Positions 2 through 5,718 of a stretch of 64,000 nucleotides of DNA are shown piece by piece. The notes under the pieces were generated by a model. It searched no databases. It was given only the letters and a program-made list of their open reading frames with translations, and was not told the DNA's origin. The stretch is from Campylobacteraceae bacterium (lineage in GTDB: Bacteria > Campylobacterota > Campylobacteria > Campylobacterales > Sulfurovaceae). The stretch covers positions 1 through 64,000 of the forward strand of contig JAMOOX010000007.1 of the NCBI GenBank assembly GCA_027065045.1, written 5' to 3'. Both the position numbers and the translations under genes were made by a program. Numbering within the stretch: position 1 is the stretch's first letter; each line of letters opens with the position of its first letter.

Positions 2-835
2 TATATGAATAGTACTTATGAGGGATACTATTTACAGTTGGATATAAAAGGTTTTTTTTATAATCTTGATAAAGATATACTTTTTGATAAACTAGCCTCT
101 TTAGGAGGTGGGTTAGGAAATTCACCCTACGGATTTATAGATGAACCTAATCTATTTTCAAATTTATCTACAGCTATAATCTCTAAAGATGCACTTAGTT
201 TAGCCAAACAAATCATATATCACGACCCAACAAAAAATTATATTTTCAAAGGTGATAAATCTAAATTAAAACTACTCCTACCACATAAAACTCTCTTTAA
301 AATACCCAAAAATATAGGAGTTCCTATAGGTAATCTTACAAGCCAGTTTTTTGCAAATGTATATATGAATGATTTTGATAACTATGTAAAAAGAGTATTA
401 AAAGTCAAAAGATATATCCGTTATGTAGATGATTTTGTACTTTTTGATAACTCCAAAGAGAGATTAGAGATTTTATATATAGAGATACAAAATTATCTAA
501 GAGAACATCTATCTTTGGAACTAAGAGCAGATACAAAATTAAAAAAACACTCTAATGGTTTAGATTTTTTAGGTTATATTATCCGTCCAAATTATATACT
601 TACAAGAAAAAGAGTAGTTAATAATTATAAATATAAAAAAGCAAAATATTTAGATGAATATGAAAAACAAAAAGCCAATATGAGTCTTGAAGAGATAAAA
701 AAGTTCTTATCTGTTCAAGCTTCATTTGTAGGGCATATTAAACATGCAAATAGCTTTAAATTAAATAAAAAGGTGGGACAATTTGATGATGAGAAATATA
801 TTAATCTTATTCTTGGTGAGTGGAGTGATAGCTAA
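2..835 (+). CDS. DGR-type reverse transcriptase (5' end outside window)
   Basis: A reverse transcriptase that in diversity-generating retroelements copies a template repeat with errors at adenines and delivers the copy into a target gene. The visible part holds the RT palm: LQLDIKGFFYNL (motif 1), GVPIGNLTSQFFANVY (motif 4), RYVDDFVLF (catalytic YVDD) and GLDFLGYII (motif 7). The GNLTSQ form of motif 4, with SQ rather than the SP common in other RTs, is the hallmark of DGR enzymes. The reading frame is open to the left edge and no ribosome site is visible, so the N-terminus is missing. The last ~50 bases overlap the signal-peptide region of the next gene, a DUF1566 protein. No group II intron maturase domain and no retron msr/msd structure was seen. 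The DGR assignment rests on motif form plus the neighbour. Confidence 0.85.
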   Translation, partial: YMNSTYEGYYLQLDIKGFFYNLDKDILFDKLASLGGGLGNSPYGFIDEPNLFSNLSTAIISKDALSLAKQIIYHDPTKNYIFKGDKSKLKLLLPHKTLFKIPKNIGVPIGNLTSQFFANVYMNDFDNYVKRVLKVKRYIRYVDDFVLFDNSKERLEILYIEIQNYLREHLSLELRADTKLKKHSNGLDFLGYIIRPNYILTRKRVVNNYKYKKAKYLDEYEKQKANMSLEEIKKFLSVQASFVGHIKHANSFKLNKKVGQFDDEKYINLILGEWSDS

Positions 836-1205
836 TGCTAGTTTTAGCAAAAGTGGAGATATTGTAACAGATAGTATTTCAGGTTTACAATGGCAAGATA
901 ATGCAATAGGACAAAAGATGAAGTGGCAAGAGGCTATAACTCACTGTGAGGATTTATCTTTGGGTGGTTATAGTGATTGGAGACTACCAAATATAAATGA
1001 GCTTAGAAGCATAGTAGATAGAGATAAATATGATCCTACTATTGTTAGTGCTTTTATTAATTTTAGCTCTAGCTATTATTGGTCTTCTACTACAAATAAG
1101 GGCCATAGTGGCAATGCTTGGATTGTGAATTTCAGCCTTGGCAATGTGTACAGCCGCAGTAAGAGCTATTACTATTATGTTAGGTGTGTAAGAGCAGGAG
1201 AGTGA
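786..1205 (+). CDS. Secreted DUF1566 (C-type-lectin-like) DGR target protein
   Basis: A small exported protein of ~139 residues with an N-terminal signal peptide (ILILFLVSGVIANA) and a DUF1566/Lcl domain (SGLQWQDN, WRLPNINELRSIVD, YYWSSTT, YVRCVRAGE). This domain is a known C-type-lectin-like scaffold diversified by DGRs. The ATG at 786 (or 789) is preceded by AGGTGGG at 771-777. The upstream TTG at 783 is less likely. The gene starts inside the 3' end of the RT gene. The 3' end (about 1090-1180) uses C-ending codons (GGC, AGC, TTC, TAC, CGC) that are rare in the rest of the window, as expected if AAC/AAT template codons were randomised. The product is probably a displayed or secreted binding protein; its ligand cannot be read from sequence. 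Confidence 0.85.
   Translation: MMRNILILFLVSGVIANASFSKSGDIVTDSISGLQWQDNAIGQKMKWQEAITHCEDLSLGGYSDWRLPNINELRSIVDRDKYDPTIVSAFINFSSSYYWSSTTNKGHSGNAWIVNFSLGNVYSRSKSYYYYVRCVRAGE
1090..1205 (+). repeat. Probable DGR variable repeat (VR)
   Basis: Within the DUF1566 gene the codons from 1094 read AAT AAG GGC CAT AGT GGC, and later ATT, TTC AGC CTT GGC, TAC AGC CGC AGT and AGC TAT TAC TAT TAT. Nearly all variable-looking codons are NNC or NNT, the product expected when adenines of AAC/AAT template codons are replaced while the third base is kept. Constant residues (AW, VNF, GNV, YVRCVR) lie between them. The matching template repeat was not found in this window and is presumed to lie left of the RT. 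VR limits are approximate. Confidence 0.7.
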
Positions 1206-1223
1206 TTTGATATTTGCTCTTTT

Positions 1224-1258: not shown

Positions 1259-1283
1259 GGTGCGTTTCCTAACGCACCTTTTA
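1259..1283 (+). terminator. Hairpin terminator after the DGR target
   Basis: GGTGCGTT, a TCCT loop and AACGCACC form a perfect 8-bp stem followed by TTTTATT. This is a good Rho-independent terminator for the DUF1566 transcript. It could also act as the inverted repeat that DGRs often carry just beyond the VR. Confidence 0.7.
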
Positions 1284-2183: not shown

Positions 2184-3869
2184 ATGAAAAAAATACCTTA
2201 TGGAATAAGTGATTTTAAATTATTAAAAGAAGAGAATTATTATTTTGTAGATAAGACAAATTATATTGAGAAATTAGAAAATTATAATAGTAGGTTTTTG
2301 ATGTTCTTACGCCCACGAAGGTTTGGTAAATCTCTATTTATCGCTATTTTAGAAGCCTATTATGATAAATTTTATAAAGATGAGTTTGATGAAATTTTTA
2401 AAGATACATATATTATAGATAATAAAACGCCAGAAGTTAGTAGTTATCTTGTGCTTAGATTTGATTTTAGTGCTATTGATATATCTGATGTAGAAGAGAG
2501 TTTTAAGTATGATTTACAACTTACACTTAAAAGTTTTGTAAAAAGGTATAACTTAAATATCAATTTTGAGAATAGTAGTCCTATTTCTATGCTTAGAGCT
2601 ATATTTGATTATATTCAGAATAATTCTAGTCTCAAACTATATTTACTAATTGATGAGTATGATAATTTTGTAAATAAACTTCTACTAAATAGTAAAAATG
2701 ATTATCTCAATATCGTATCCCAAAAAACAGCCTACTTTAAACAATTCTTTACAGTTCTAAAAGCAGGAGCAAGTGGAAACAATGCACCAATAAAAAGAAT
2801 GTTTATCACAGGTGTAACTCCAATGACAATGTATGATGTTACAAGTGGATTTAATATCGGTGATAATATCTCACTTCATAAAGATTTTAATAATCTTATT
2901 GGATTTAATAATGATGAGTTAGTTCAGATTTTAGAAGATTTTGAATTAGATAAAAAGGTAGATATTGAGATATTAAAAGAGTGGTATAATAATTATAAAT
3001 TTAATGATAAAAGTGAGTCAATATATAATACTGATATGATTTTATACTTTATCAATAAATTTATGGCAGAAGATGAGTTACCAAAAGAGATGATAGATAT
3101 AAATGTACGAAGTGATTACTCAAAACTCAAAAAGATTATATATACAAATAGAAAGCTAAATGGAAATTTTAACACACTACAAACTTTAATTGGTGGAGAG
3201 TCTATATCTATAAGCAATTTAGTTCAAGATTTTAGTGCATTAGATTTGGAAAAAGAGAATAATTTTAAATCTTTTATGTTTTATTTAGGACTTGTAACGA
3301 TTGAAGATAGAAGATTAAAATTAAATCTAAAAATTCCAAATGAAACCGTCAAAAGAATAGATATTGATTTTTTAAAAGATGCTCTTGAAATAGAGAAAAT
3401 TTTTACTTTAAATGTTGATAAACTATCTGATTATTTAGCAGAATTTGCCTTAAATGGAGATATTGAAGTATTTAAATATTTTGCTTCTATGATAAAAGAT
3501 AATACAGGAATAAGAGATTATATCTATAATGAACAAACGATAAAATCTATGTATTTAGCATATCTTTCATTAACGCCATATTTTGTTGCTAAAAGTGAAT
3601 TTGAGATGAATAAAGGTTTTTGTGATATATTTTTAAAACCTCTTAATCCTTTCGTTGAGTATATTGGATTGGTTGAGTTTAAATATATTAAACGAGGAGA
3701 GAAAGCATCTAAAAAGAGGATTAAATCTCTTGTCCAAGAGGCTATAAATCAGTTGATTGAGTATGAGAGAGATGAGATAGTTACTACTTATATTGATGAT
3801 GGGTTAAAGGTAGAAAAGATTGTGATAATCTTTTGGGGTTGGGAGATGGTTTGGTGTGAGAAGATTTAG
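2184..3869 (+). CDS. AAA-ATPase-like / PD-(D/E)XK family protein
   Basis: A 561-residue protein with the 'predicted AAA-ATPase' domain at the N-terminus (PYGISDFKLL, YYFVDKTNYI, LRPRRFGKSLF as the Walker A-like loop, LLIDEYDNF as Walker B) and a PD-(D/E)XK nuclease-like C-terminus (residues ~480-561: FCDIFLKP, LVEFKYIKRGE, ending in GWEMVWCEKI). The family is widespread, repetitive and accessory; its function is unknown, though a DNA-processing or mobile role is often proposed. The length is full for the family and no breaks are seen. It stands alone between the IS110 remnant and a convergent transglutaminase gene. A shortened, broken paralogue lies at 42803-43335. Confidence 0.85.
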   Translation: MKKIPYGISDFKLLKEENYYFVDKTNYIEKLENYNSRFLMFLRPRRFGKSLFIAILEAYYDKFYKDEFDEIFKDTYIIDNKTPEVSSYLVLRFDFSAIDISDVEESFKYDLQLTLKSFVKRYNLNINFENSSPISMLRAIFDYIQNNSSLKLYLLIDEYDNFVNKLLLNSKNDYLNIVSQKTAYFKQFFTVLKAGASGNNAPIKRMFITGVTPMTMYDVTSGFNIGDNISLHKDFNNLIGFNNDELVQILEDFELDKKVDIEILKEWYNNYKFNDKSESIYNTDMILYFINKFMAEDELPKEMIDINVRSDYSKLKKIIYTNRKLNGNFNTLQTLIGGESISISNLVQDFSALDLEKENNFKSFMFYLGLVTIEDRRLKLNLKIPNETVKRIDIDFLKDALEIEKIFTLNVDKLSDYLAEFALNGDIEVFKYFASMIKDNTGIRDYIYNEQTIKSMYLAYLSLTPYFVAKSEFEMNKGFCDIFLKPLNPFVEYIGLVEFKYIKRGEKASKKRIKSLVQEAINQLIEYERDEIVTTYIDDGLKVEKIVIIFWGWEMVWCEKI

Positions 3870-4758: not shown

Positions 4759-5718
4759 ATGATTAAATATTTTTTGTCATTTCTATTAGGTGTATTTTTT
4801 TTAGCATCTTGTGGAAGTAGCGACCCTATTAAATTGAGCGATGAGGCATTAGTTGGGACAACTAGACCACTAGGTGTATGGATAAAGAGTACAAAAACTT
4901 TTGATAGTAATCTCTCTACTAATCAAACTTTTGGTGCTTTATCTAGTAGAGGAATTAAGCATATTGACCAGTTGATAACAATGCAACAAAATAGTGATAA
5001 ATCTTATAGTATTATAAATGAATCACTATTAGCAGATTTTATCTCTAGTGCTTATAGTGAGGGTATAAGAGTCAATCTATTTTTAGAGGGTAATGACCTA
5101 TTTAATGGAGATAATCACAAAGATACTCTAAGTAAACTAGAGACTATAATAGATTTTAATAATAATTTAGCAGTTACAACAGGGCTTTCAATATTAGGAG
5201 TTAAATATCGTGTAGATTTAGAACACTCAACAGGCTGGGCAAATAGTCATCAAAATGCTACCTATAATTATCTATATTATCTTCTAAAAGCAAAAGCTTT
5301 ATTAGAACGAGAGGGTTCTACATTTAAAATATCAGTAGATACAAATAGTGCTTGGTCATCTTCAAACTATACTATCTCATTTAATAAAAAAGATAAAGCT
5401 TTATCATCTCATATTATAGATATTGTAGATTATATCACAATATTGTCTTTTAGTAGAGATGGAGATGATATATACTCAATTATATCTAATGAGTTACAAT
5501 ATATCAAAGATGAACAACTTACATATAGACTAGCACCATCAATGGCTATATCACCATTAGTAGATGCAACAACAAGTTTTTATGGTATGGATTCTACAAT
5601 ATTTTGGAGAGAGTTAGATAAGCTTCAAGGTTGGATAGCAGAAGATAAAAGAGTAGCTATGATAATGATAGAGGATTTTGATTATTTAGACCAAATCCCT
5701 TCTATCCCTGCAAATTAA
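4759..5718 (+). CDS. Lipoprotein of unknown function, possibly TIM-barrel
   Basis: A 319-residue protein with a lipoprotein signal peptide (FLLGVFFLASCG, lipobox with Cys at ~18). The body has alternating strand/helix segments (VNLFLEGNDLF, YRVDLEHS, IVDYITILSFSRD, RVAMIMIEDFDYL) that recall the barrel of glycoside-hydrolase-like proteins, but no family signature or catalytic pair was identified with confidence. It is followed 8 bases later by a DedA gene, so the two are probably co-transcribed. The likely place is the outer or inner membrane face of the periplasm. Function is unknown. Confidence 0.7.
   Translation: MIKYFLSFLLGVFFLASCGSSDPIKLSDEALVGTTRPLGVWIKSTKTFDSNLSTNQTFGALSSRGIKHIDQLITMQQNSDKSYSIINESLLADFISSAYSEGIRVNLFLEGNDLFNGDNHKDTLSKLETIIDFNNNLAVTTGLSILGVKYRVDLEHSTGWANSHQNATYNYLYYLLKAKALLEREGSTFKISVDTNSAWSSSNYTISFNKKDKALSSHIIDIVDYITILSFSRDGDDIYSIISNELQYIKDEQLTYRLAPSMAISPLVDATTSFYGMDSTIFWRELDKLQGWIAEDKRVAMIMIEDFDYLDQIPSIPAN

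Follow-up and report, generated by a model that had tools for sequence, protein, structure and literature searches.

This locus raises the question of whether a run of NNC and NNT codons at the 3' end of a small DUF1566 (Lcl_C) gene behind a reverse transcriptase (RT) gene is the variable repeat (VR) of a diversity-generating retroelement (DGR), as an earlier sequence-only reading had proposed, and which template repeat (TR) would have written it. The stretch of DNA analyzed here (64,000 nucleotides; the window) covers bases 1-64000 of contig C7 (65,252 bases) from assembly G000, which consists of 164 contigs. The host is probably a Campylobacterota member resembling Sulfurovum. The first base of the window is the end of the contig, where the 5' part of the RT gene is cut away. 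We hold with high confidence that the last part of the small gene is the VR of a chromosomal DGR and that it lies in the second, small and secreted, target behind the RT. The features of the locus are given in Table 1.

Table 1. Coordinates of the DGR-related features in the window
Feature	Position	Strand	Remarks
DGR-type RT	2-835	+	277 residues; 5' part missing at the contig end
Overlap of RT 3' end and target start	789-835	+	47 bases, +1 frame; start signal-peptide-like
Small secreted target, Lcl_C (DUF1566)	789-1205	+	138 residues; PF07603, E 8e-35
VR	1068-1205	+	last ~45 codons of the target; variable codons ~1071-1173
Constant VR 3' end, candidate IMH (initiation of mutagenic homing) region	1179-1212	+	GTGTAAGAGCAGGAGAGTGATTTGAT; putative role by analogy with other DGRs
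Inverted repeat	1259-1278	+	GGTGCGTT-TCCT-AACGCACC

The reverse transcriptase and its overlapping target

The RT expected ahead of the DUF1566 gene is of the SQ type: the visible part of its gene is an open frame with intact motifs, including IGNLTSQ, in which SQ replaces SP, and YVDD, as in DGR-type RTs. The protein matches PF00078 (E 2e-11), and its best relative among solved structures is 8ub7, annotated as 'Reverse transcriptase' (E 4e-18), which we take to be the RT of the BPP-1 DGR. None of the NCBIfam RT models reaches its own cut-off on this protein. An identity as a defence RT was considered and rejected, the PADLOC models matching weakly and spread over many families. Scans of IMG/VR returned distant RTs only, and no match to the constant core of the VR.

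The small target has further in-frame starts at 783 (TTG) and 786 (ATG), and its match to PF07603 (120 bits against a cut-off of 34.9) identifies it as an Lcl_C domain protein. As in other DGR targets, the VR occupies the 3' end of the gene; the start of this gene overlaps the RT gene. The N-terminus resembles a signal peptide, as judged by eye. A structure model built from an alignment of 17 sibling small targets reached a mean pLDDT of 84.7, with only two of the five models being good; the closest Foldseek match was the C-terminal domain of Legionella Lcl (8q4e, E 8e-6, TM 0.61), followed by many C-type lectin domains. In the predicted model, the variable residues (~95-129) sit in C-terminal strands and loops. 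The signal-peptide-like start and the predicted fold support a secreted, lectin-like protein, in line with the sequence-only reading. The Legionella Lcl adhesin shares the domain family with the small target and is its best fold match, but the two are 29% identical in the structural match, and the Legionella domain is the C-terminal part of a longer protein whereas here it stands alone in 138 residues.

Just downstream of the target, on the minus strand (1180-1886), lies a broken IS110-type transposase gene, of which the N-terminal piece (1665-1886) matches IS110 models and the remaining frame is interrupted.

The codon footprint and its borders

Codons ending in C are otherwise avoided in this genome region, as had been claimed, making up 879 of the 15,027 codons (5.8%) in the long ORFs of the window. 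Against this background they account for 12 of the 47 codons in 1062-1205 (p 1e-5) and 10 of the 29 in 1089-1175 (p 3e-6), so that the reported NNC/NNT run is borne out, and only 21 of the 13,621 stretches of equal length elsewhere in the long ORFs reach ten such codons. The first part of the target has five among 91 codons. The footprint had been placed at 1090-1205; the run itself is real, but the variable stretch starts about 20 bases further to the left, at ~1071, because the codon at that position is not the same in the closest homologue and, in most siblings, the TR extends at least that far to the left. Variation ends with a codon at ~1173-1176, and positions 1179-1205 are constant.

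The VR on contig C163 of this genome has the same constant 3' end, and the end of the TR on contig C88 departs from it at two adenines (both contigs are described below). The ends of VRs and TRs also differ at fixed sites in the sibling DGRs (GGACAG and GGAGAG, respectively), as well as in the DGR of C88.

A downstream hairpin is not a requirement for every DGR. The inverted repeat past the VR has an 8 bp stem and the loop TCCT and begins 53 nt beyond the stop codon. The hairpins published for phage DGRs, which concern a subset of DGRs, have a GC-rich stem of 7-10 bp and a GRNA loop and lie 4-34 bp away (PMC3240598), and neither the loop nor the distance of the window repeat fits these rules. 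Stems of at least 7 bp within 110 nt were found for 16 of 42 VRs versus 197 of 3000 random stretches. A role of such hairpins as a homing element was rejected, their stems, loops and distances being inconsistent among the siblings, with terminators as a possible source. Inverted repeats of the form GGTGC..GCACC occur near DGR genes in the window, in locus L109 (~3487-3504) and in locus L042 (~5552-5569), and may belong to a dispersed repeat and not to the DGRs.

Templates, siblings and alternative explanations

The closest small target found is on contig C164 of genome G091, from another genus of the same family, with 62% identity. Differences between the two genes at codon positions 1/2/3 number 14/13/4 in the VR and 28/20/38 upstream of it (p 0.001), the upstream pattern resembling ordinary divergence. 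Among the codons with an amino-acid change, the third base is kept in 16 of 17 in the VR and in 17 of 35 upstream (p 0.001). If each first or second codon position at which the two VRs disagree is set to A, AAT or AAC results at the sites where the sibling TRs have AAY. As judged from this pair of genes, the comparison implies a putative AAY-rich template, and the third-base pattern is what would be expected from adenine mutagenesis of AAY codons, not from ordinary selection. In a test for non-adenine variants, the differences that do not fit adenine mutagenesis were limited to the border codon 1092 and three third-position changes. Compared with the small target on C163, third-base conservation is not significant (p 0.07), as expected because the VR of C163 has a different TR.

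The homologous locus in G091 (L109, 2822-3406) comprises two VR-bearing Lcl_C genes 30 bp apart, with no Avd, TR or RT between them; the core has been lost or is located elsewhere, and a separate full DGR is present on contig C66 of that genome.

A scan of reference genomes identified 13 RTs that are 55-75% identical to the window RT; these siblings lie in DGRs and their hosts are Sulfurovum, Sulfurimonas, Arcobacter and related MAGs, as well as MAGs labelled Patescibacteria and Gracilibacteria. In the latter (L043 and L052; 61% and 56% RT identity), the gene order is the same, and their placement reflects either inter-phylum transfer or a binning error. At the loci with enough sequence, the order is a large Lcl_C target, Avd, TR, RT and a small secreted Lcl_C target, except for L049, where the TR comes before Avd. 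Of this order, the window has the final two genes, with their overlap kept; at the sibling loci holding both genes, the small target likewise begins, in the +1 frame, ~35-70 nt before the RT gene ends. The Avd-like gene, present in the DGR of C88 and in most siblings, matches the PHROG family 'Avd protein of DGR' (E 1e-9) and PF22296 bAvd (E 9e-9, below its cut-off).

Searched systematically, most sibling loci yielded TR/VR pairs. The resulting set comprises 12 TRs (C88 and 11 siblings) and 28 VRs in one ungapped frame of 46 codons. Changes affect 355 of 955 TR adenines versus 26 of 1667 other bases; 183 are A to G, 131 A to T and 41 A to C, and they fall 218/123/14 at codon positions 1/2/3. 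Of the alignment columns, 15 have AAY in half or more of the TRs; all 15 are NNY in the window VR, whose residue differs from the TR consensus at 11 of them versus 5 of the 26 other columns (p 9e-4). When tried as direct templates for the window VR, the TRs of relatives each gave at least 19 non-adenine mismatches, as expected of diverged DGRs.

In several siblings a short open frame, matching the targets in its reading frame, contains the TR (L046, 423-683; L047, 2502-2762; L048, 1458-1748; L051, 932-1225; L075, 865-1143 on the reverse strand). It begins at the avd stop codon or overlaps with it (ATGA), ends beside the RT start and may be translated; the TR of C88 has no such frame. In L040, the repeat that takes the place of the TR, flanked by Avd and RT (5357-5494), is not AAY-rich and is VR-like (SSYYWSSTTFVGRTSNAWSVYFYSGLQRNRSRTNSLYVRCVRAGE), possibly representing an overwritten or decayed template.

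The same genome contains a second DGR. Contig C88 carries, on the minus strand, a large Lcl_C target of 1169 residues with Ig-like and cadherin domains, an Avd-like gene of 113 residues, a TR and an RT gene running off the contig. Contig C163 starts inside a near-identical RT end (judged by eye to overlap C88 by ~125 bases with one mismatch) and carries a Lcl_C target of 140 residues. Over the core repeat, nearly all differences between the C88 TR and its two VRs fall on TR adenines. For the window VR itself, no fitting TR was found in the window, the remainder of the contig or the whole assembly; its TR is not visible because the contig ends upstream, and the cognate Avd, absent from the assembly as well, would fall past the same end.

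Thus, the proposal of an adenine-mutagenized VR is supported by the codon-position pattern against the homologue, by the TR/VR sets of C88/C163 and 11 siblings, and by the shared gene arrangement. The alternative that deserves most attention is that the VR no longer changes and is the fossil of a past DGR target, whose core is dead or was lost past the contig end. Besides the lack of a recovered TR in the assembly, decayed relatives speak for it: an RT fragment of 103 residues in genome G110, an RT with a stop in G004 and the target pair of G091 without an RT, which suggests that targets can persist after the loss of a core or be located away from it. We nevertheless consider a fossil unlikely, since the visible part of the window RT is open with its motifs intact and the overlap with the target is retained. 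It is highly improbable that the window VR was written by the TR on C88, in the other DGR of the genome. The terminal ~30 bases of this VR are identical to the end of the C163 VR and almost identical to that of the C88 TR, so that a start site could be shared, but the C88 TR mismatches the window VR at 25 of 86 non-adenine positions. As the C88 TR fails to explain the VR, the window would therefore have its own DGR, with a presumed TR in an assembly gap. Ordinary diversifying selection or recombination on the lectin domain, with no retroelement involved, has equally little to recommend it, since although Lcl_C genes are common in the family (matches in 88 of 175 genomes, most without a neighboring DGR RT, versus RT matches in 23 of 175), such processes would not leave the third base unchanged in 16 of the 17 codons with a replacement while changing it in about half of those upstream, nor confine sibling differences to template adenines, and they are refuted in the siblings.

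Proposed mechanism and relation to known systems

For the preferred reading, a VR diversified by the window's own DGR, we propose by analogy with BPP-1 and other DGRs that the RNA of a presumed upstream TR would be copied by the RT with a presumed Avd partner, that adenines would be misread during copying, and that the mutated cDNA would replace the 3' end of the gene, beginning at the constant end near 1179-1212. AAY codons of the template would thereby become NNY codons in the VR and, as NNY codons are never stop codons, ~16 Lcl_C residues would vary while the scaffold stays fixed. The exported protein could then present many binding surfaces. Retrohoming, export, ligand binding and present activity are putative for the window element.

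DUF1566 targets of DGRs have long been known, having been described in 2014 and 2019, and these surveys describe DUF1566 as the Pfam domain found most often among DGR targets (PMC4159848, PMC6642488); the window element is another of this known type. It shares with them a DUF1566 gene that ends in a VR, the SQ-type RT and the adenine-specific TR/VR differences of its siblings. Here, however, the host group would be the sulfur-oxidising Campylobacterota, and the core has a target on either side, the smaller of which has its start within the RT gene. The DGR of Bordetella phage BPP-1 (Mtd, Avd, bRT) is similar in its RT, as indicated by the match to 8ub7, and in the Avd-like gene of the siblings, whereas the element described here is chromosomal and not evidently phage-borne, has a small secreted Lcl_C target instead of a tail protein, and has a downstream inverted repeat that departs from the hairpin rules of the BPP-1 type. 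The Treponema denticola DGR (TvpA; PMC4891356) likewise has exported targets with a lectin fold and cassette genes overlapping in different frames; there, an accessory gene and the RT gene overlap by 47 bp (PMC4891356), whereas here the RT and the target do, and the accessory gene is of the HRDC type instead of the Avd-like type of the siblings.

Delta- and Epsilonproteobacteria appear in a 2012 survey of DGRs (PMC3521204). In a limited literature search with partial coverage, we found no dedicated DGR description for Sulfurovum, Epsilonproteobacteria or Campylobacterota, and none of the RT/target overlap or of TR open frames.

The start of the target in the RT gene and, at several loci, the TR open frame at the avd stop lead us to suggest tentatively, as a possible though rather doubtful model, that DGRs of the sibling type form a translationally coupled cassette. 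If so, ribosomes would pass over the template, and RT synthesis, template handling and export of the variable protein could be tied together.

The results add well-supported two-target DGRs to the sulfur-oxidising Campylobacterota. The sibling set of 12 TRs and 28 VRs provides a clean natural record of the Lcl_C residues that are free to vary and of the base bias, and the conserved RT/target overlap offers a regulatory feature that can be tested.
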